This document shows positions 11,048 through 31,855 of a stretch of 58,254 nt of DNA, piece after piece. Below the pieces are notes generated by a model. It searched no databases. It saw nothing but the letters and a program-made list of their open reading frames with translations, and was not told where the DNA came from. Numbering within the stretch: position 1 is the stretch's first letter; every line of letters begins with the position of its first letter. Origin of the DNA: an uncultured Verrucomicrobiota bacterium (lineage in GTDB: Bacteria; Verrucomicrobiota; Kiritimatiellia; Kiritimatiellales; Tichowtungiaceae). Made by a program: the position numbers and the translations under genes. The DNA lies in assembly GCA_903831085.1 (NCBI GenBank), contig CAIKWE010000003.1, positions 87,468 to 145,721 on the forward strand. Direction: 5' to 3'.

Positions 11048-11772
11048 TGAAACTGACAGGTAAGCGGGCTTTAGTGACCGGCGGCGCGGTACGAATCGGC
11101 CGCGCAATCACCGAAGCGCTGATTGCCGAAGGTGCGGAGGTGATTGTTCATTTCCAAACCTCGGAACGCGAGGCCGATGCGTTCTGGCCGAACATCATTC
11201 AGGCCGACCTGAGCGATCCGGCGCAGTGTGAAAACCTGCTGGCACGAGTTTCGGAACAGTTCGGCACCGTTGATATTCTCATCAATAATGCCGCGGTCTT
11301 TCATCAGACGAAACTGGCCGACGCCACGCACGACGTGGTCATGGACGAACTCCAGATTAATCTGCTCGCGCCGCTGGCGCTGATCCGCGGGTTTGCGCGG
11401 CAGACCCAAACTGGAAAAATCATCAACCTGCTCGACCGGCGCGTCACTTCGCACGACACGACCTGCGCGCCGTACATGCTCAGCAAAAAAGGACTCGAAG
11501 AGCTGACGAAACTGGCGGCGCTCGATCTGGCGCCCGGCATTACCGTCAACGCTGTCGCCCCCGGCGCGATCCTTCCGCCGCCGAAACATGCCGATAATCC
11601 GGCGTGGGAATATGCCGGAACCATTCCTCTCGGCAAACGTCCAACGCCCGCCGATGTCGCCGGGGCGGTTCTTTATCTGCTCAAAAGCGACCACATCACC
11701 GGACAGACTCTTTTTATCGATGGCGGCCAGCATTTATTGGGAATAGAATTTACAGAAGGAAACAAAGGATAA
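11047..11772 (+). CDS. SDR-family pteridine/dihydromonapterin reductase-like protein
   Basis: A 241-residue short-chain dehydrogenase. The cofactor loop reads VTGGAVRIGRAI, with the arginine in the Gly-rich motif that marks the PTR1/FolM branch. The catalytic serine of ordinary SDRs is replaced by aspartate (INLLDRR) ahead of YMLSK, as in pteridine reductases. Together with the neighbouring dihydroneopterin aldolase, a role in reducing dihydrofolate or dihydromonapterin is likely but inferred. Starts at ATG 11047, overlapping the pepA stop. The last residues (TEGNKG and the stop) are encoded by the left arm of an inverted-repeat element, so the C-terminus appears reshaped by that element. Confidence 0.85.
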   Translation: MKLTGKRALVTGGAVRIGRAITEALIAEGAEVIVHFQTSEREADAFWPNIIQADLSDPAQCENLLARVSEQFGTVDILINNAAVFHQTKLADATHDVVMDELQINLLAPLALIRGFARQTQTGKIINLLDRRVTSHDTTCAPYMLSKKGLEELTKLAALDLAPGITVNAVAPGAILPPPKHADNPAWEYAGTIPLGKRPTPADVAGAVLYLLKSDHITGQTLFIDGGQHLLGIEFTEGNKG

Positions 11773-11835
11773 CGAAGGTTGCTTAACTCCCAAATCTATT
11801 CATGCTTTCCTTTGTTCATCTTCGTTACCTTCTGT
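11752..11835. repeat. Inverted-repeat element, ACAGAAGG family (copy 1)
   Basis: The left arm 11752-11780 starts ACAGAAGGAAACAAAGG and continues to AACGAAGGTT. The right arm 11809-11835 (CCTTTGTTC to ACCTTCTGT) is its imperfect inverse. A second copy with nearly the same arms lies at 25688-25930. Here the left arm supplies the final codons and stop of the SDR gene, and the right arm ends just before the folB ribosome binding site. Confidence 0.85.
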
Positions 11836-11867
11836 AGAAATATTTTTTGTCCTCCAAAGGAGTTCAC

Positions 11868-12224
11868 ATGGATCGAATTTACATCAGAGACCTGGCGCTG
11901 AGATGCATCATCGGGCTTTATCCCGATGAGCGGAAAACGAAGCAGGACGTCCTTATCAATGTGACGATGGAAGCCGATCTGCGCGCCGCCGGAAAGAGCG
12001 ATGCGCTCAAAGACACCGTGGACTACAAGGCTATCAAACTGGCGATTCTGGATTTCGTGGAAAAAAGCGGCTTCCATCTGATTGAATCATTGGCTGAGGG
12101 GATTGCCACCATCTGCCTGAAAGATAAGCGCGTTCAGGGCGTCACCGTCACCATTGATAAGCCCGGAGCGCTGCGCTTTGCCCGCAGTGTCGCCGTCGAA
12201 ATCACAAGAAGTCGTACTGCGTAA
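11868..12224 (+). CDS. folB: Dihydroneopterin aldolase / epimerase
   Basis: Splits 7,8-dihydroneopterin to 6-hydroxymethyl-dihydropterin in folate synthesis, and some members also epimerise. The 118-residue protein has the FolB pattern IYIRDLALRCIIGLYPDERKTKQDV, the DYKAI segment, the catalytic-region LIESLAEGIA, and VTVTIDKPGALRFA near the end. ATG 11868 is chosen over 11847 because AAAGGAG (11856-11862) sits at the right distance. The stop codon lies within the start of a dispersed repeat (ACTGCGTAACGAG). It forms a probable folate pair with the SDR upstream. Confidence 0.92.
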   Translation: MDRIYIRDLALRCIIGLYPDERKTKQDVLINVTMEADLRAAGKSDALKDTVDYKAIKLAILDFVEKSGFHLIESLAEGIATICLKDKRVQGVTVTIDKPGALRFARSVAVEITRSRTA

Positions 12225-24337: not shown

Positions 24338-25654
24338 TCAGCCAAGCTTGGAGAGCGAAGGCGTGGCGACGCCGAGGTCGCTGGGAGCGCGGCCAAGGCG
24401 GTCGAGGAGCTGGATGATGGCGCGGGTCTGGTCGGCAATACTTTCGGTGGCGTGGGCGCGACCGTCGTAGATAGCGTAGTCGGCGCGGTAACGGAGCGGC
24501 GTAACATTCAACATGACCGAGCTGGCGCCGGACATCAGTCCGCGTTCGCGGGCGTTCGGCGACAACGTTTCAAATGCGGTGGTGACCAGCACCTTAGCCT
24601 GCGGCGGCGCGGCGAGCCGGGCGGCGGCCAGCGCACGAAGCATTTGCGATTCGGTGGCCGGAATAATGTCGCGGCGGCGGTGACTGGCCAGTACCGGGCC
24701 GAAGCTGAACATTTCGGCATTCAATTCACCCGCCAGCAGAATGTCGTCGGCCAGCGAATCCACGGTCTGGCCGGGCAGACCGATCAGTCCGCCGGTAACG
24801 GTCAGCCAGCCGGTCTTGAGCGCGTGGCGCAAATGACTGAGGCGGGCATCCAGCGTATCGCCGGGATGAAGCGCGGCATAGAGCTTGGCGTCCGACGTTT
24901 CGAAGCGCATCAGCAGAGCGCGGGCTCCGGCTTCGTACAGCATGTCGAGACCGTCGAGGCCGACTTCGCCGAAGCTGACGCAGATGAAGACGCCGTGACG
25001 GCGTTTGATCTCGGCGACGATTTCGGCCAGAAACGCCGGCGTGTACGCCGGGTCTTCGCCGGACTGGAGAACCAGCGACTTAAAGCCGAAACCTTCGATC
25101 GCTTCCTTGGCGGCTTCGAGAATTTCGTCGCGGGTCATGCGGTAGCGCCGGGTCAAAGTGGAGTTGACCGCCAGACCGCAGTAGAGACAGTCGCTGGAGC
25201 AGTAGTTGGAAATCTCAAGAATGCCGTGCACACAGCAGGAGTTGCGGTGGTGCAGATGGCGGACGGCGTTGGCGGTGCGATAGAGCCGTTCAAGGCGATC
25301 CGGCTCTTCGACGGTCAGCAGATAGCGCAACTCATCGCGGGAAATTTGTTCGCCGGCGCCGGCCTTGTCGAGAATGTCCTGTAGCGGCCGGTCATTGGGT
25401 TCCGGTGCGGGCTTTTCCGACATGGCGGTATCGCGTTCCTGAAGAACCAGAAACAGTTCATTCCAGGTATCGAGCATTTCGCGGGCGAAGTCGGGATCGA
25501 CTTTTTCAATGACGTAACCGCCCTGCGCATAGACATAGTCGCCGGGCCGGATGTTGGTAAGTTCACAGAGTGCCGAACGGATTTCGCCGAAGTAGCTGAT
25601 TACTGCATTGCGGCCGCTGATCTCTGTCACAACACCTGGAAGCGCGTAGCACAT
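24338..25654 (-). CDS. HypC-HydE fusion: hydrogenase chaperone plus radical SAM maturase-like protein
   Basis: A 438-residue two-part protein. Residues 1 to about 72 are a HypC/HupF chaperone domain, starting MCYALPGVV with the essential cysteine at position 2 and containing IRPGDYVYAQGGYVIEKVD. HypC normally carries the Fe(CN)2CO group to the large subunit of [NiFe] hydrogenases. After a linker, residues from about 95 are a HydE-like radical SAM enzyme: the cluster motif ISNYCSSDCLYCGL (CxxxCxxC), RRYRMTRDEILEAA, LVLQSGEDP, GGLIGLPGQTVDSLADDIL and TAFETLSPNARERGLMSGA. HydE normally acts in [FeFe]-hydrogenase H-cluster assembly, yet this gene follows an Ech [NiFe] operon. BioB and PylB are weaker matches. 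Function of the fusion is inferred. Confidence 0.88.
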   Translation of the reverse strand: MCYALPGVVTEISGRNAVISYFGEIRSALCELTNIRPGDYVYAQGGYVIEKVDPDFAREMLDTWNELFLVLQERDTAMSEKPAPEPNDRPLQDILDKAGAGEQISRDELRYLLTVEEPDRLERLYRTANAVRHLHHRNSCCVHGILEISNYCSSDCLYCGLAVNSTLTRRYRMTRDEILEAAKEAIEGFGFKSLVLQSGEDPAYTPAFLAEIVAEIKRRHGVFICVSFGEVGLDGLDMLYEAGARALLMRFETSDAKLYAALHPGDTLDARLSHLRHALKTGWLTVTGGLIGLPGQTVDSLADDILLAGELNAEMFSFGPVLASHRRRDIIPATESQMLRALAAARLAAPPQAKVLVTTAFETLSPNARERGLMSGASSVMLNVTPLRYRADYAIYDGRAHATESIADQTRAIIQLLDRLGRAPSDLGVATPSLSKLG

Positions 25655-25687
25655 TTAGTTTTTCACACTCCGATTTTTTACGATTTT

Positions 25688-25930
25688 ACAGAAGGTAACC
25701 AAGGATAACGAAGGTTGAAGAATGAACTTCCGGGCAATTGTCCAGAGCATGTACCGACTTAAATGCCGCCTCTCCTTCTTGTAGGACAGGCTTCCTCGGT
25801 ATTCCGAGGAGCCTGTGTCTTTTATCATCACACGCTCCCGGATACGGGAAGCGCGTCCTACAACCACAAAGTAATACGACGCTTTAAACGTTATTTGCTC
25901 TAGCCTTTGTTCCCCTTCGTTTCCTTCTGT
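25688..25930. repeat. Inverted-repeat element, ACAGAAGG family (copy 2) with a nested repeat
   Basis: The left arm 25688-25716 (starting ACAGAAGGTAACCAAGG) and right arm 25904-25930 (CCTTTGTTCCCC to TCCTTCTGT) match the arms of the element at 11752-11835. Nested inside is another inverted pair, TTGTAGGACAGGCTTCC (about 25778) and GGAAGCGCGTCCTACAA (about 25847), around a TCGGTATTCCGA hairpin. It fills the 286-base gap between hypA and the hypC-hydE gene and may split the operon. Confidence 0.85.
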
Positions 25931-25940
25931 AAAAAAATGT

Positions 25941-26285
25941 TTAAGCTAAGTCCACATCAAGCACCCGCAGGCCGGAACGGTGGCCGCAGGGACGACCGGG
26001 TTTAGCGCATTGAGGACAGGTAAAGACGCCGGGCTGGCGTTCAAATTCGGCATTGCAGGCAGGACAAAAAAGGCGCGGCGGCACATGGCGGTATTCGATT
26101 TTGGCGTCAGCCATCGCCGGTTCTTCGGCCAGATGGGATTCAAGGTGCATTTCCACCGAGATCTCGTCCATGTGGGAATCGGGACTCAACTCAAGAACGA
26201 TACGATTGACCTTCGACGCGCCAGCGGCCAGTATCCGCCGCTTCACATCTTCGATGACGCCGTCAATGAGGTGGTCTTCGTGCAT
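25941..26285 (-). CDS. hypA: HypA-like nickel insertion protein
   Basis: HypA delivers nickel to the large subunit of [NiFe] hydrogenases. The 114-residue protein starts MHE, the conserved nickel-binding N-terminus, and has two zinc-binding pairs, LFCPAC and FTCPQC, with the expected spacing. Between them are the family's beta strands (KVNRIVLELSPDSHMDEISVEMHLE). A further CGHRSG near the end gives an extra cysteine. It begins one base after the echF stop codon, so it belongs to the same transcript. Confidence 0.88.
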   Translation of the reverse strand: MHEDHLIDGVIEDVKRRILAAGASKVNRIVLELSPDSHMDEISVEMHLESHLAEEPAMADAKIEYRHVPPRLFCPACNAEFERQPGVFTCPQCAKPGRPCGHRSGLRVLDVDLA

Positions 26286-26286
26286 A

Positions 26287-26616
26287 TCAAAACGTTTCCC
26301 AGTCCTTCGTCACGGTCGGAATACCATGATCGCCGGTCAGATGCAGACATTTCTTCGGGCAGACTTCGACGCAGCAGTTGCAGGAGATGCAGCGCAGACG
26401 GTCGATGTGCCACTTCTTATTCGTCCGGTCGACATTCAGCGCCTGAGTCGGACAGCGCTTGGCGCACAGGGTACAGAAGATGCAGTCGGAGATTTTGATA
26501 TCCAGACGGCCGCGCGAGCCGGGACATATCTTCCGGGGTTCGAACGGATATTTGGTCGTGACCGGCGTACGGAATGTCCACGCCAGAATCATTTTTTTCA
26601 TTTGGAAGAATGCCAT
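26287..26616 (-). CDS. echF: Ech hydrogenase subunit F (two [4Fe-4S] ferredoxin-like)
   Basis: Electron-transfer subunit, equivalent to NuoI/HycF, that passes electrons from reduced ferredoxin to the hydrogenase core. The 109-residue protein has two [4Fe-4S] motifs, CIFCTLCAKRCP (about residues 45-56) and CISCNCCVEVCP (about 75-86), with the usual preceding KYPFEP segment. AGAGG precedes ATG 26616. It sits between echE and hypA with gaps of 5 and 1 bases. Confidence 0.92.
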   Translation of the reverse strand: MAFFQMKKMILAWTFRTPVTTKYPFEPRKICPGSRGRLDIKISDCIFCTLCAKRCPTQALNVDRTNKKWHIDRLRCISCNCCVEVCPKKCLHLTGDHGIPTVTKDWETF

Positions 26617-26621
26617 GGTGT

Positions 26622-27701
26622 TTACCTCTCCGTGCAGCTGATGCAGGGGTCAATTGTCAGTACCAAAACCGGAACGTCGGCCAATTCGCAGCCCGCCAGC
26701 ATTTTGACCAGCGGCGGAACGTTGGCAAAGGTCGGCGTGCGGGCGCGGAAACGGGTCAGATTCTTAGTGCCGTTACCCTTGATGTAATAAACCACTTCGC
26801 CGCGGGGCTGTTCGACGCGCGAGAAAAATTCGCCGTCGGGATTGCCGGTCACTTTAACAGCGATTTCGCCTTCCGGCATTTTCGCCGCCGCCTGACGGAT
26901 CAGGTCGACCGACTGGAACAGCTCGGCACAACGCACCGCACAACGGCTGTAAGAATCGCCGTCCGTCTTCGAGATCGGCTGGAAATCCAGATTGCCAAAG
27001 GCGGCGTACTTCAACAGGCGCATGTCATCGGCAACGCCGCTGCCGCGCAGAGTCGGGCCGACCGCGCCCAGCGAAATAGCATCTTCTTTAGAGATAACGC
27101 CAACGCCGCAGAGACGGTGCTTAACCGAATTGTCGTTCATGAAGACATCGACGATCAGCTGCATTTCCTTCTCAACCGTTTCCAGTTGAGCCAACAGCCA
27201 GCTCATTTGTTCCGCCGGAATATCGCGGCGGGTGCCGCCGACTTTACAGGAACCGAAAATGACGCGGCCGCCGGTGGTCGCTTCAATGAGGTCAAGAACC
27301 TGCTCACGGACGCGCCAGCTGTGCATGAACAGCGACTCGAAGCCGAATGCATCAGCCATCAGACCGAGCCACAGCAGATGGCTGTGGATGCGGGAAAGTT
27401 CGCCCCAGATCGTGCGTAGATATTTGGCGCGCGTCGGAACTTCAATCTTCATGATCTCTTCAACGCCCTGGCAGTAGGTCTGGCCATGAATGAAACTGCA
27501 GATACCGCAGATGCGCTCGGCAACGTAGACGTACTCGATGTAGTCCTTCTTCTCGACCAGCCTTTCCAGTCCGCGGTGGATAAATCCGATGGAAGGAACA
27601 GCCTCGACTACTTTTTCGTCTTCAACCACCAGATCGATATGAATCGGCTCCGGAAGCACCGGGTGCTGCGGGCCGAAAGGAATGATTGTGCGGGTACCCA
27701 T
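26622..27701 (-). CDS. echE: Ech hydrogenase large subunit (group 4 [NiFe])
   Basis: Carries the Ni-Fe site that reduces protons to H2. The 359-residue protein starts at ATG 27701 (GGGAGG upstream); a longer frame to 27869 lacks family similarity. All four metal-binding cysteines are present: ERICGICS (C65, C68) near the N-terminus and DPCISC (C353, C356) at the end. This separates it from NuoD and from Ni-free relatives. The protein ends only three residues after the last cysteine, so there is no C-terminal extension to be removed and no maturation protease should be needed, as I recall for other Ech/Coo types. Co-directional with the other ech genes in canonical order. Confidence 0.96.
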   Translation of the reverse strand: MGTRTIIPFGPQHPVLPEPIHIDLVVEDEKVVEAVPSIGFIHRGLERLVEKKDYIEYVYVAERICGICSFIHGQTYCQGVEEIMKIEVPTRAKYLRTIWGELSRIHSHLLWLGLMADAFGFESLFMHSWRVREQVLDLIEATTGGRVIFGSCKVGGTRRDIPAEQMSWLLAQLETVEKEMQLIVDVFMNDNSVKHRLCGVGVISKEDAISLGAVGPTLRGSGVADDMRLLKYAAFGNLDFQPISKTDGDSYSRCAVRCAELFQSVDLIRQAAAKMPEGEIAVKVTGNPDGEFFSRVEQPRGEVVYYIKGNGTKNLTRFRARTPTFANVPPLVKMLAGCELADVPVLVLTIDPCISCTER

Positions 27702-27703
27702 GA

Positions 27704-28093
27704 CTATTGACCTCCCTTGGCCGGAGCCGCAGCGGGAGCCGGCGCGGCGTCTTGAATGAATGGATGTTTCATGGCGGTCTTGTAAAAGTTGCCTTTGAAA
27801 TCGAGGGCGTTGCCGTCCACCTGAACGCCGAACAGGTCGCTGATCTCGTTCTCGTAGGTGAAGGCGCACCAGTAGATGCCGCTGACACTCGGAACGCGGG
27901 CGCCAATCTTCGGCTGCATGAAGCGGAAGTTAACGAACTTGCGGTTGAGGTCAAAGGTGTAGTCCAGCTGGAGTTCTTCGCCCAGCCGCGTGACACAGAT
28001 CTGAACCAGCCGGTATCCCTGCTCTTTCATTTTCCGCGTTTCGGCCACCAGCGTCTCCGGCATGACGGTGATTATGGTTTGTTCTTCAATCAT
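27704..28093 (-). CDS. echD: Ech hydrogenase subunit D (NuoC-like)
   Basis: Soluble-arm structural subunit, related to the NuoC 30-kDa subunit. The 129-residue protein has the family pattern YRLVQICVTRLGEELQLDYTFD and the hallmark YENEISDLFGVQ, followed by FKGNFYKTAMKHPF and an Ala/Pro-rich tail. ATG 28093 overlaps the echC stop by four bases (ATGA) and has GGAG upstream; the longer frame to 28120 is not supported. It precedes echE by two bases. Confidence 0.9.
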   Translation of the reverse strand: MIEEQTIITVMPETLVAETRKMKEQGYRLVQICVTRLGEELQLDYTFDLNRKFVNFRFMQPKIGARVPSVSGIYWCAFTYENEISDLFGVQVDGNALDFKGNFYKTAMKHPFIQDAAPAPAAAPAKGGQ

Positions 28094-28995
28094 TTGCGCT
28101 CCTTCTGCAGATAAACCCAATTCACCGTCGGGGTGAAAAGTTCGGTCCGAACCTGCCGATACCCCATCTTCTCGTAAAGGTGCAGGTTCCGCAGGCTTTG
28201 GTGACCGGTGAAGGCCTCGTAGATTTTGACATCACCGACTTCCTGCTCGATCTGCTTGATCAAGCGGGTAGCGAGTCCTTTGCCCTGGAAATAAGGATGA
28301 ACGGCCACGCGGCTGATGTAGGCCATATCTCCGTCGCGGCGGCCGCGGATTGAACCGACGATTTTGCCGTTAGCGACAGCCTTGAGGAAAATCATCCGGT
28401 CGAAGTCGGCGGTGATCTCTTCCATCGTCTGGCCAAGCGCCGGAACGCTATCGCTTCCATAAAGCTCAGCCTCGCTACGGTAAGCGATCTTCTGCAGAGC
28501 GAGAATCTCAGGAATATCCTTTTGGTTGGCCCGGTTGATCATCAACCCGCCGCCGACCGCGCCGGCGGAAGTTTCCATAAACCTGTGCTTCATCTCCAGA
28601 ATATCGAGAGCACGGACCACGCCGTCGATGATCGCCTCGGGGCGGGCCGCGCAACCTGGAACGTAGACATCCACCGGGATCACCGTGTCGATGCCGCCGA
28701 GGACGTTGTAACATTCGCGGAAGATGCCGCCGGACGTGCCGCAGATCCCGATGGCGACGACCACCTTGGGTTCGGGCATTTGAGCGTAGATATTGCGGAC
28801 GACCGGCGCATTCTGAACATTAACCGAGCCGGTGACCAGAAAGATGTCGGCATGTTTCGGATTGCCGGTGTTGATGATGCCGAAACGTTCGACATCAAAG
28901 TTTGGCATCAGGCAGGCAAGCACTTCGATGTCGCAGCCGTTGCAGCTCGACGCATCGTAATGGATCACCCAGGGAGATTTTTTAAAAGCGGTCAT
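28090..28995 (-). CDS. echC: Ech hydrogenase small subunit fused to a GNAT acetyltransferase
   Basis: Residues 1 to about 150 are the NuoB-like small subunit that holds the proximal [4Fe-4S] cluster. Its four ligands are visible: C18 and C21 (SSCNGCDIE), C85 (GICGTSGG) and C115 (YVPGCAARPE). Residues from about 152 to 301 form a complete GNAT domain (INRANQKDIPEILALQKIAY, YISRVAVHPYFQGKGLATRLIKQIE with the acetyl-CoA loop QGKGLA, and LRNLHLYEKMGYRQVRTELF). The reading frame is continuous through the junction, so this is a real fusion rather than two adjacent genes. Typical EchC proteins are about 150 residues. The acetylation target is unknown. Confidence 0.93.
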   Translation of the reverse strand: MTAFKKSPWVIHYDASSCNGCDIEVLACLMPNFDVERFGIINTGNPKHADIFLVTGSVNVQNAPVVRNIYAQMPEPKVVVAIGICGTSGGIFRECYNVLGGIDTVIPVDVYVPGCAARPEAIIDGVVRALDILEMKHRFMETSAGAVGGGLMINRANQKDIPEILALQKIAYRSEAELYGSDSVPALGQTMEEITADFDRMIFLKAVANGKIVGSIRGRRDGDMAYISRVAVHPYFQGKGLATRLIKQIEQEVGDVKIYEAFTGHQSLRNLHLYEKMGYRQVRTELFTPTVNWVYLQKERK

Positions 28996-29008: not shown

Positions 29009-31855
29009 TCATTTCCAAAGGGCTAAAAGAATCAGGTTGGCCACCGCCAGCACCAGACTTACCGCCCAGGCGCTCTTGATGGCAAGCTGCCACTTCAGGC
29101 GGGCGAAGGTGTTGTCGACGAAGATCATGAAGAAGAAAACCAGAACCATGGCGGCGGCGCCGACCCACAGGTTGAAAGCGAAGAACAAACCAACCCATGC
29201 GAAGAGAATCACGTTCTCATACCAGTGAGCGATTTCGATCAGCGCCAGCATTTTGCCGGAGAATTCGGTGGTGATCCCCTTGACCAGTTCCTGATGGGCG
29301 TGGTGCGAGGTCGACAAGTCGAACGGCGATTTGCGGAACTTGATTTCCAGAATGTAGAGGAAGCCGATGAAGATCAGGAGCAGCTTGAGCGAATTGGCCG
29401 GACTGGCGTTGAGGAAGATGTCGTCGATGCGGAAACTGCCGGTGGTCATATACATACCGACCGCGGCGATCAGCACCATCGGCTCGTAGGCGACCATCTG
29501 GATCAGTTCGCGCTCGGCGCCGATGAAACTGTAGGGCGAACTCGCCTTGTAGGCCGCGAGGACAAAGAAGATGCCGGCCAGCGTCAGCGAGAAGATCATC
29601 AGCAGCAGGTCGGAACCGCAGAAGAAAAGCGCGCCGGTGAAGACGACAAAAAGGAAGAAGAACAGAATGTAGAAGTTCTGCGAGCGGCGAACCACGATGC
29701 TCTCCTTGCCCCAGAGCTTGGCGACATCGTAGAAGGCCTGCCGCACCGGCGGTCCGCGACGGCCCTGCATGCGGGCTGTCAGTTTGCGGTCGATACCGGC
29801 CAGAAAACCGCCGATGAGCGGCGCCAGCACCAGATAGGCTGCCAGGCGGATTAAAACCTCTTTGAGCGAAAGCATGTGCGGGGCGATCGTACGAATGGTT
29901 TCCTCCGGCATGCCGATCGGCAGCAGGAAGCTTCCGGCGAGCGCGATCAGTGTCGCGACAGCGATCCAGAATCCGGTTTTGAAAACCCGCTCCTCGCCGA
30001 GCAGCTGGCCGATGTAGTAGTTATGCATCGACATGTCGCGGATGATGCCGGCCGAACCCTGGAAACGGGCCTGACCATCAGTCGATTCGACATTGGCGCC
30101 GGCAAGATAGGCATCGACCACCTTCACCTTGCGGTTGTAATTGAAAAAGCTGAGCGGGAACATCGCCACCATACCGAGCATCAGCCCCATGACAATCAGG
30201 TTGCTGGCACCCAAAACGCTGTCCGCCGCTTTGAAACCGCCGCCGATGTACGGTTCAATGAACTGGTTGGAAATGAGCGGGAAGCACATGCAGGTGAGAA
30301 TGGTTAAAACCGACAAGGAAATCAGGGCAGTCCATTTTCCGCCGCTGATATTCTTTTCCTTCTTTTCCATCGGGCCGGTGATCTGCAGCAGCTTGCCCAG
30401 CCACTTGACCCAGAAGAAAAGTGTGGCCGAGCTGCCGAACACGATAAAAATCGAGAAAAGCGGATGGGCGTCGACGATTGCTTTAAGAACGGCCCATTTG
30501 CTGATCAGCATACCGAAGGGAGCCAGGAACATACCGGCGATACCAATTTCGATCATTACGGCGAGCTTAGGCAGGCGCAGAACCAGTCCGGCCATATTCT
30601 CGATATCACGGCTGTGTATCTTGTGCTCAACAACACCGACGCAGAGGAAAAGGAGCGCCTTGGCCACGGCGTGAAAGATAATCAGCAGGATACCGGCCCA
30701 AAGGGCCTCTTTGGTGCCGATGCCGCCGCAAATGACGATCAGGCCAAGGTTGGCGACCGTTGAGTAGGCAAGAATCTTCTTGGCATCACTGGTGCAGATC
30801 GCGACAAGCGAACCGGCAACGAAGGTGACCGCACCGATCAGGGCAACCACCATACCGACCTTGGTTCCTTCCAGATTAGGGGCAAGGCGGAGAACCAGAT
30901 AGACGCCGGCCTTCACCATCGTGCTGGAGTGCAGCAGCGCGGAGACCGGCGTCGGCGCCACCATCGCGCCGCGAAGCCAGCCAGTGAACGGAAATTGAGC
31001 CGCCTTGGTGATCCCGGCAAACGCAAGCAGTCCGGCGGCAATAACCATCACCTGCGAAGCGGAACCCTGACTGCGTAGATCGATCAGGCTGCTGACCCCG
31101 TTATTGCCCAGCAGGACGATCGCCAGAGCGAAACCCAGGCCGCCCATCAGATTCATCGTCAGGGCGCGCATGGCATTGGTCTTGGACTCTGCCGTCTCTT
31201 TATAGCCGATCAGCAGAAAAGAACTGAGCGTGGTGATTTCCCAGAAGAAGTAGAGCCAGTTTAAGCTGTTGGAAAAAACGATACCGAACATCGCGCCCAA
31301 GAAGATAAAAAACGTGGCGAAGAACATCGGGCGACGGTCACGGTACTCCGGATGATGGTTGTCGTGAAATTCCTTCATGTAGCCGGGGGCATAAATGCAG
31401 ATCAACCCGCCGATGATACCGATGACCAGAACCATAATCACGGAAAGCTGGTCGCAGAGAATCCAGGGAGAAACGGTGGCGACTGCAGAAGCAATTGATT
31501 CGGTCGCTGATGTCGGCTTGAGCATCTCGTGGATTTCAAAACCTGCCACCAGAATGAACTGCGTCAGAAGCAGACCCAGAGCCAGCCAGTTTTTCGCCTT
31601 CACCGTGACCCACACAATAAAACCGGCTATCAAAGCCTCAACGACGAGCATTGCGAGACTGATGCTGTGGGCAGAGCCGTCCAGAAGCGTCGTGTTCTGA
31701 TTGGACTTCCAGGCCAGAAGGATTGATCCGGCCATAATGACAGCCGTGAAGGCATAAACCGCGTAGCGCCGCAGGGTGTCACTGGAGATAAAAAACAGGA
31801 CAATACCCGCCAACAGAGGAAAGGCCACCATCCACGGAATCAGATTCTCAATCAT
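29009..31855 (-). CDS. Ech hydrogenase EchA-EchB fusion (ion-pumping membrane subunits)
   Basis: A 948-residue membrane protein. Residues 1 to about 655 are the antiporter-like EchA (NuoL/MrpA family), with SLNWLYFFWEITTLSSFLLIGYK, KAAQFPFTGWLRGAMVAPTPV, SALLHSSTMVKAGVYLV and HAVAKALLFLCVGVVEHKI. Residues from about 660 are EchB (NuoH family): RMQGRRGPPVRQAFYDVAKL, ERELIQMVAYEPMVLIAAVG and LEIKFRKSPFDLSTSHHAHQELVKG. In described Ech operons these are separate genes in the same order, so the fusion is unusual. The complex would use the energy of H2 evolution to pump H+ or Na+. AAGGTGG lies 7 bases before ATG 31855, and a good promoter precedes it. Confidence 0.93.
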   Translation of the reverse strand: MIENLIPWMVAFPLLAGIVLFFISSDTLRRYAVYAFTAVIMAGSILLAWKSNQNTTLLDGSAHSISLAMLVVEALIAGFIVWVTVKAKNWLALGLLLTQFILVAGFEIHEMLKPTSATESIASAVATVSPWILCDQLSVIMVLVIGIIGGLICIYAPGYMKEFHDNHHPEYRDRRPMFFATFFIFLGAMFGIVFSNSLNWLYFFWEITTLSSFLLIGYKETAESKTNAMRALTMNLMGGLGFALAIVLLGNNGVSSLIDLRSQGSASQVMVIAAGLLAFAGITKAAQFPFTGWLRGAMVAPTPVSALLHSSTMVKAGVYLVLRLAPNLEGTKVGMVVALIGAVTFVAGSLVAICTSDAKKILAYSTVANLGLIVICGGIGTKEALWAGILLIIFHAVAKALLFLCVGVVEHKIHSRDIENMAGLVLRLPKLAVMIEIGIAGMFLAPFGMLISKWAVLKAIVDAHPLFSIFIVFGSSATLFFWVKWLGKLLQITGPMEKKEKNISGGKWTALISLSVLTILTCMCFPLISNQFIEPYIGGGFKAADSVLGASNLIVMGLMLGMVAMFPLSFFNYNRKVKVVDAYLAGANVESTDGQARFQGSAGIIRDMSMHNYYIGQLLGEERVFKTGFWIAVATLIALAGSFLLPIGMPEETIRTIAPHMLSLKEVLIRLAAYLVLAPLIGGFLAGIDRKLTARMQGRRGPPVRQAFYDVAKLWGKESIVVRRSQNFYILFFFLFVVFTGALFFCGSDLLLMIFSLTLAGIFFVLAAYKASSPYSFIGAERELIQMVAYEPMVLIAAVGMYMTTGSFRIDDIFLNASPANSLKLLLIFIGFLYILEIKFRKSPFDLSTSHHAHQELVKGITTEFSGKMLALIEIAHWYENVILFAWVGLFFAFNLWVGAAAMVLVFFFMIFVDNTFARLKWQLAIKSAWAVSLVLAVANLILLALWK

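Follow-up and report, generated by a model that had tools for sequence, protein, structure and literature searches.

The window, namely the whole stretch of DNA analysed here (58,254 nucleotides from an uncultured Verrucomicrobiota bacterium), carries a single open reading frame of 438 amino acids in which a HypC domain is fused to a HydE-like radical SAM domain. The position given for it in the initial annotation, 24338–25654, stands, and the gene is read from the minus strand, where its ATG lies at 25654 and its stop codon ends at 24338; the plus-strand frame across the same interval is interrupted by a stop. Upstream of the fusion, on the same strand, lie the genes echA-B, echC-GNAT, echD, echE, echF and hypA (Table 1). 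The nearest solved relative of EchE by sequence is 6cfw_L, the subunit alpha of a membrane-bound hydrogenase. EchA and EchB form one frame of 948 amino acids, as they do in one genome of the same genus, and the in-frame fusion of EchC to a GNAT acetyltransferase is also present in two same-genus genomes. The terminal inverted repeats of the 251-bp element that separates hypA from the fusion gene are imperfect, and the element contains an additional, inner inverted repeat. In two same-genus genomes the element is absent and the stop codon of hypA overlaps the start codon of the fusion as TGATG; because of this overlap in the sister genomes, the element looks like a recent MITE-type insertion.

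Table 1. Coordinates of the fusion gene, of its domains and motifs, and of the neighbouring features in the window.
Feature	Coordinates	Strand	Basis or remarks
EchA-EchB fused membrane subunit	29009..31855	-	Pfam and NCBIfam; same-genus comparison
EchC small subunit fused to GNAT acetyltransferase	28090..28995	-	Pfam and NCBIfam
EchD	27704..28120	-	Pfam
EchE large subunit, Ni-Fe ligand motifs RICGIC and DPCISC	26622..27701	-	Pfam; start codon chosen by eye
EchF, 2x[4Fe-4S] subunit	26287..26616	-	Pfam and NCBIfam
HypA	25941..26285	-	Pfam PF01155
MITE-like element of 251 bp between hypA and the fusion gene	25684..25934	.	31-nt terminal inverted repeats
HypC-HydE fusion protein	24338..25654	-	438 aa; Pfam/NCBIfam matches, AlphaFold2 model, orthologues
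HypC domain, residues 1-76 (Cys2 at 25649-25651)	25427..25654	-	PF01455, TIGR00074, PDB 2z1c
HydE-like radical SAM domain, residues 90-428	24371..25387	-	
CCVHG motif, residues 140-144, opposite V51-H52-I53-R54 of T. maritima HydE	25223..25237	-	alignment
Radical SAM cluster motif C152-x3-C156-x2-C159	25178..25201	-	sequence motif and alignment

The two halves of the protein are recognised independently. PF01455 (HupF_HypC) matches residues 1–64 with 48.5 bits, above its curated cut-off of 28.5, and the NCBIfam HypC model TIGR00074 covers residues 1–76 with 43.2 bits, below its cut-off of 48; furthermore, the T. kodakarensis HypC structure 2z1c matches this domain with 8.3e-11. Pfam Radical_SAM covers residues 147–305 with 64.4 bits, above its cut-off, and the best NCBIfam model for the second half is HydE (TIGR03956), at 218.3 bits, below the equivalog cut-off of 254.6, which is reached by 11 fusions from other genomes (278.9 bits in G440, for example). 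Scores for PylB (123.4 bits), BioB (75.7), ThiH (68.4) and HydG (63.4) are weaker. The AlphaFold2 model of the fusion has a mean pLDDT of 91.2 and a pTM of 0.90. The second half shows the HydE fold together with the radical SAM CxxxCxxC motif, and profile scores and fold rule out its descent from BioB or PylB, a case that the initial annotation had named as one that would refute it. The motifs on which that annotation relied (MCYALPG, RRYRMT, LVLQSGEDP, GLPGQT and CxxxCxxC) are all found in the sequence, and its single continuous frame is borne out by orthologues in other genomes: two same-genus genomes carry the fusion at 97% and 95% identity, three more genomes of the phylum at 43–49%, and its occurrence across many phyla rules out a frameshift or an assembly error at the junction.

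The distribution of the fusion was followed by a wide scan, in which contigs of species genomes were searched with an N-terminal alignment and two patterns, one of them containing CCVHGI. Among the 157 relatives obtained, 80 loci were examined and all 80 contain the fusion, several of them cut by contig ends; 76 were recognised by the start motif, and the remaining four (L076, L097, L107 and L117) start slightly differently. The hosts are mostly Omnitrophota, accompanied by Margulisiibacteriota/WOR-1/Saganbacteria, Elusimicrobia, Verrucomicrobia, Scalindua, Deltaproteobacteria, Aenigmatarchaeota, Brevinematales, Chitinispirillaceae, Atribacteria and WOR-3. In the 387 genomes of the phylum of the window at least six fusions are present (G000, G029, G003, G110, G132 and G275), six being the number among the matches listed, down to about 1e-45. 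Carriage by phages or plasmids finds no support in the searches made: no relative of the fusion was found in viral_contigs, and the 15 plasmid records that match all fall short of 80% query coverage, with HydE or unannotated proteins in the five listed.

An alignment of 77 full-length fusion rows (at least two pairs of which, G003/L057 and G132/L125, are one gene taken twice) with 35 separate HydE proteins and T. maritima HydE, whose residue numbers are given here as chain numbers minus ten, revealed a consistent replacement of residues in the HydE-like half. At the positions of V51-H52-I53-R54 in T. maritima HydE, all 77 fusions carry C140-C141-x-H143; within this stretch of HydE only the arginine is conserved among separate HydE proteins (35/35), and its position is taken by the histidine in 77/77 fusions. 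Likewise, the position of Arg155, an arginine in 35/35 separate HydE proteins, is glycine or alanine in every fusion. Both Arg54 and Arg155 have an active-site role in HydE. Further changes concern Thr134, replaced by Phe, Cys or Ile in 72 fusions, and Pro292, replaced by Leu in 73. Since CCVHGI was part of one scan pattern, the conservation of Cys-Cys-x-His owes something to the search itself; the motif is nevertheless shared by the six fusions that were obtained independently of this pattern. In the HypC half Cys2 is kept in 77/77 rows, and the sequence reads A-Q-G-G-Y where HypC 2z1c has V-H-T-G-F, A-Q-G-G being invariant in 71 rows. In a tree built with a quick method and rooted on HydG, whose rows contain no BioB or PylB, the 44 sampled fusions form one branch beside 36 HydE proteins, with an SH-aLRT value of 95.

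The neighbourhoods of the fusion are dominated by genes of [NiFe] hydrogenases and of their maturation. Large subunits of [NiFe] type that carry both CxxC motifs are encoded in 52/80 loci, hypA in 50, a hydrogenase protease in 44, and, within 1 kb of the fusion, hydG in 30 and a Rex-like regulator in 16; either the large subunit or an adjacent hydG is present in 64/80. The 28 loci in which the available stretch holds no large subunit with both motifs include many short contigs, and the fusion also stands without nearby hydrogenase genes at L070 and L131, whose records span the whole genome. No match to HypD, HypE or HypF was found within the 80 loci. The hydrogenase types seen beside the fusion include Ech and group 3b-like enzymes. 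Among large-subunit-like frames longer than 700 nt in the 80 loci, 52 of 53 have both CxxC motifs and the remaining one begins at a contig end. An Ech-like complex devoid of a metal site is ruled out for these 52 subunits, in which both cysteine motifs are intact.

Where the relevant genes are covered, the fusion follows those for hydrogenase, protease and HypA in most loci. Two orders are common, beta-gamma-delta-alpha-protease-hypA-fusion-(rex)-hydG, presumably of group 3b type, and echA-F-hypA-fusion; at L063, L071–L073 and L089 hypA precedes the hydrogenase genes, and hydG is ahead of the fusion in three loci (L069, L090 and L121). In 17 of the 30 loci with a nearby hydG, its open frame, as distinct from its start codon, opens ahead of the fusion end or no more than 100 nt away from it. 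Pfam searches recovered the protease, HypA, Rex and radical SAM/BATS domains at L096, HypA at L131 and the protease at L087. In G110 a group 3b-like hydrogenase, with both small and large subunits checked by Pfam, precedes the protease, hypA and the fusion. At L096 a gene for a Rex-like redox repressor (11311–11946, Pfam-checked) lies between the fusion and hydG, and similar placements occur at L092, L094, L102, L108, L120 and L122. At L100 (10001–16296) a large subunit (DPCLSCAVHVM) presumably of group 1 type comes after the fusion and hydG, which ties a further hydrogenase type to this gene pair. At L073 (12739) hydG is followed by a short frame whose likeness to HydF is confined to the C-terminal part of that protein, and the corresponding genome, G402, has no full HydF match.

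The maturation genes accompanying the fusion were searched in 61 genomes, six from the search of the phylum and 55 reached through the loci of the wide scan. HypD was found in none of them (0/6, 0/5 and 0/50), and HypF above cut-off in none either (0/6 and 0/55), most fusion genomes giving weak, single-domain HypF matches, the best of which, in G422, has 125 bits over the C-terminal part; HypE above cut-off was absent from the first six (0/6). Nearly all of these genomes are MAGs, with completeness figures for the set of the first six and none for the 55, and this would favour a reading in which HypD, HypE and HypF are present but were missed in incomplete genomes, the fusion being a specialised HypC joined to an unrelated radical SAM activity. 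We consider this highly unlikely, since the HypD search works in relatives (above cut-off in 122/387 genomes of the phylum, the six fusion genomes not being among them), HydG was recovered in 56/61 of the same assemblies, and HypD is lacking also in the three genomes with a genome-long record (L070, L131 and L134) and in five fusion genomes of 91–97% completeness. Within the genus of the window, HypD is found in two of four genomes for which the matches listed include no fusion.

The initial annotation had expected the fusion to occur without hydG and hydF. For hydG this proved wrong: HydG, above cut-off in 5/6 and 51/55 genomes, is the usual companion of the fusion. HydF exceeds its cut-off in 18/61 genomes and falls just below it in G392 and G393. 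The statement of the initial annotation that neither HydF nor HydG is present holds for the window but not for its genome, where both lie on another contig (C17) together with an [FeFe] hydrogenase and a HydE distinct from the fusion, and the fusion is therefore not the sole HydE of this genome.

Separate HydE proteins, identified by reading match positions by hand, occur in 15/55 wide-scan genomes; with G392 and G393 included, HydF is present in exactly this set. The remaining 40/55 have neither, and 37 of those 40 have HydG, which leaves the fusion as the one HydE-like partner identified for HydG in these 37. A further HydE-like frame in G421, one of the 37, is shorter (221.8 bits) and was not counted among the separate HydE proteins. 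Among the first six fusion genomes HydF is present in five and a separate HydE in four. These figures bear on the possibility that the fusion is part of [FeFe] H-cluster assembly, or acts for both hydrogenase types, with the HypC half as an accessory. Its second half does fall within the HydE family, the genome of the window does have an [FeFe] hydrogenase, and G110 (L047 and L055), with HydG near a contig end, has HydF, HydG and the fusion with no separate HydE found in the assembly; yet the fusion sits among [NiFe] genes, HydF is missing from 40/55 wide-scan genomes, and a separate HydE accompanies it in 15/15 of those that have it and in 4/5 of the HydF genomes of the first six, which makes this reading very improbable. 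Service to both types, proposed in the initial annotation, accordingly fails as a general rule, although in G110, with HydF and HydG and no separate HydE, the fusion may have a part in [FeFe] maturation as well.

In another reading, the fusion would replace the HypD scaffold while CO and cyanide would come from other sources, HydG being present for other reasons. In its favour, HydG above cut-off was not found in five fusion genomes: four of the 55 (G388, which corresponds to the genome-long record L134, G393, G408 and G437) and G275. Against such an arrangement, which we regard as improbable, stand the closeness of hydG to the fusion in 30/80 loci, 17 of them with the overlapping or close frames described above, and the 37 genomes in which HydG is accompanied by neither HydF nor a separate HydE. 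The HydG proteins themselves have the expected cluster ligands, in that the radical SAM cysteines, the histidine of G-P/A-H-T and three C-terminal cysteines are kept in 72/72 rows, a set in which certain genes are represented twice. The G-P/A-H-T histidine holds the extra iron of HydG. In 14/72 rows the C-terminal cysteines have a shifted spacing, CTAGYRC instead of CxxCYR, and this variant is seen at L069, L090, L092, L096, L119, L129, L131 and other loci.

The genomes show which genes occur together, how they are arranged and which residues of HydE are exchanged, and on this we base a proposal whose chemistry and direction of transfer we infer: the fusion is probably the core of a route for [NiFe] maturation that is independent of HypD, HypE and HypF and works with HydG. 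According to PMC12752695, HydG generates Fe(CN)(CO)2(Cys) by turning over tyrosine twice and delivers this synthon straight to HydE, where it is reduced through radical adenosylation; according to PMC11565642, HypCD binds Fe(CN)2CO through Cys2 of HypC and Cys41 of HypD. Given these two properties of the parent proteins, the fusion is placed to receive with its HydE half and to deliver with its HypC half. HydG would split tyrosine and build a mononuclear Fe-CO/CN unit, as suggested by its known chemistry and by its conserved cluster ligands; the HydE-like domain would take this unit, as HydE takes complex B from HydG, and remodel it through SAM radical chemistry. Cys2 of the HypC domain and probably the Cys-Cys-x-His site, a candidate stand-in for the HypD Cys41 ligand of the classical scaffold, would then hold Fe(CN)2CO, which the HypC domain would pass to the apo large subunit, while HypA may help to insert nickel and the protease, where present, may trim the C-terminus. 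A link between a radical SAM step and the delivery of iron ligands to the [NiFe] site, as the initial annotation had surmised, is strongly supported by the position of the fusion after hydrogenase, protease and hypA genes, by the frequent proximity of hydG, and by the lack of HypD and of a full HypF in the 61 genomes.

The step that remains unsolved in the proposed route is the ligand mismatch, for the product of HydG has two CO and one CN, whereas the [NiFe] site has one CO and two CN. Two turnovers of HydG give two CO and two CN, and a balance of ligands would thus be possible in principle. In known enzymes the PRG and P-S/T-x(2-3)-N motifs of the large subunit hold the two CN ligands. Both are kept in 52/52 large subunits with both cysteine motifs, and an ordinary Fe(CN)2CO site is therefore expected. 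Alternatively, the fusion and HydG could make a variant Ni-Fe(CO)2(CN) site matching the ligand ratio of HydG, a reading in line with the composition of the HydG product reported in PMC12752695 and with the lack of HypF (0/61) and HypE (0/6) above cut-off; the retention of the CN-binding motifs argues against it, as does the Fe(CN)2CO cargo normally carried by HypC (PMC11565642), and we judge it unlikely. It is similarly doubtful, if conceivable, that, within a further route in which HydG and the fusion replace HypC, HypD, HypE and HypF, some of the [NiFe] enzymes carry an unprecedented Ni-Fe(CO)2(CN) site.

If the HydG-dependent route is correct, HypD, HypE and HypF would not be universal for [NiFe] hydrogenases, tyrosine would be one anoxic source of CO (and of cyanide) for these enzymes, a source termed elusive for CO in PMC11565642, and [NiFe] and [FeFe] maturation would share a radical SAM core. 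Furthermore, the set formed by the fusion and hydG is compact and could be tested in E. coli, and genome surveys should consider that missing hypD, hypE and hypF genes need not mean an unmatured [NiFe] hydrogenase. The initial annotation knew of no described example of the fusion, and in the open-access PMC literature searched, as judged by titles, the openings of abstracts and selected passages, we likewise found neither a HypC-HydE fusion nor a [NiFe] maturation free of HypD, HypE and HypF. In particular, the words maturation, HypC, HydG and HydE are absent from a 2019 study of Margulisbacteria hydrogenases (PMC6349859), a 2022 survey of clostridia calls the assembly of Fe(CN)2CO by HypCDEF well-conserved (PMC9431212), and the main text of a 2025 review does not contain the words HydG, FeFe or radical (PMC12134894).

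Compared with the known systems, the fusion shares with HypC/HybG (PF01455) the MC-x-A-x-P start, Cys2 and the place beside hypA and [NiFe] genes, but differs from them and from the HypCD scaffold in the lack of HypD (0/61), in A-Q-G-G-Y instead of V-H-T-G-F and in the fused radical SAM domain. Unlike HydE (TIGR03956), it has an additional N-terminal HypC domain, replacements of Arg54 and Arg155 and a branch of its own, and it occurs in genomes mostly without HydF (above cut-off in 18/61); its likeness to PylB and BioB is clearly weaker (123 and 76 bits, respectively, versus 218 for HydE). The proposed route resembles the HypCDEF pathway in its target large subunits, which have the same ligand motifs, and in its HypA and protease partners, and departs from it in that HypD and HypF are absent, HydG is mostly present and the ligands would derive from tyrosine rather than from carbamoyl phosphate. 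The parts each belong to a known family, and the pathway that they form in combination fits none of the known maturation systems.
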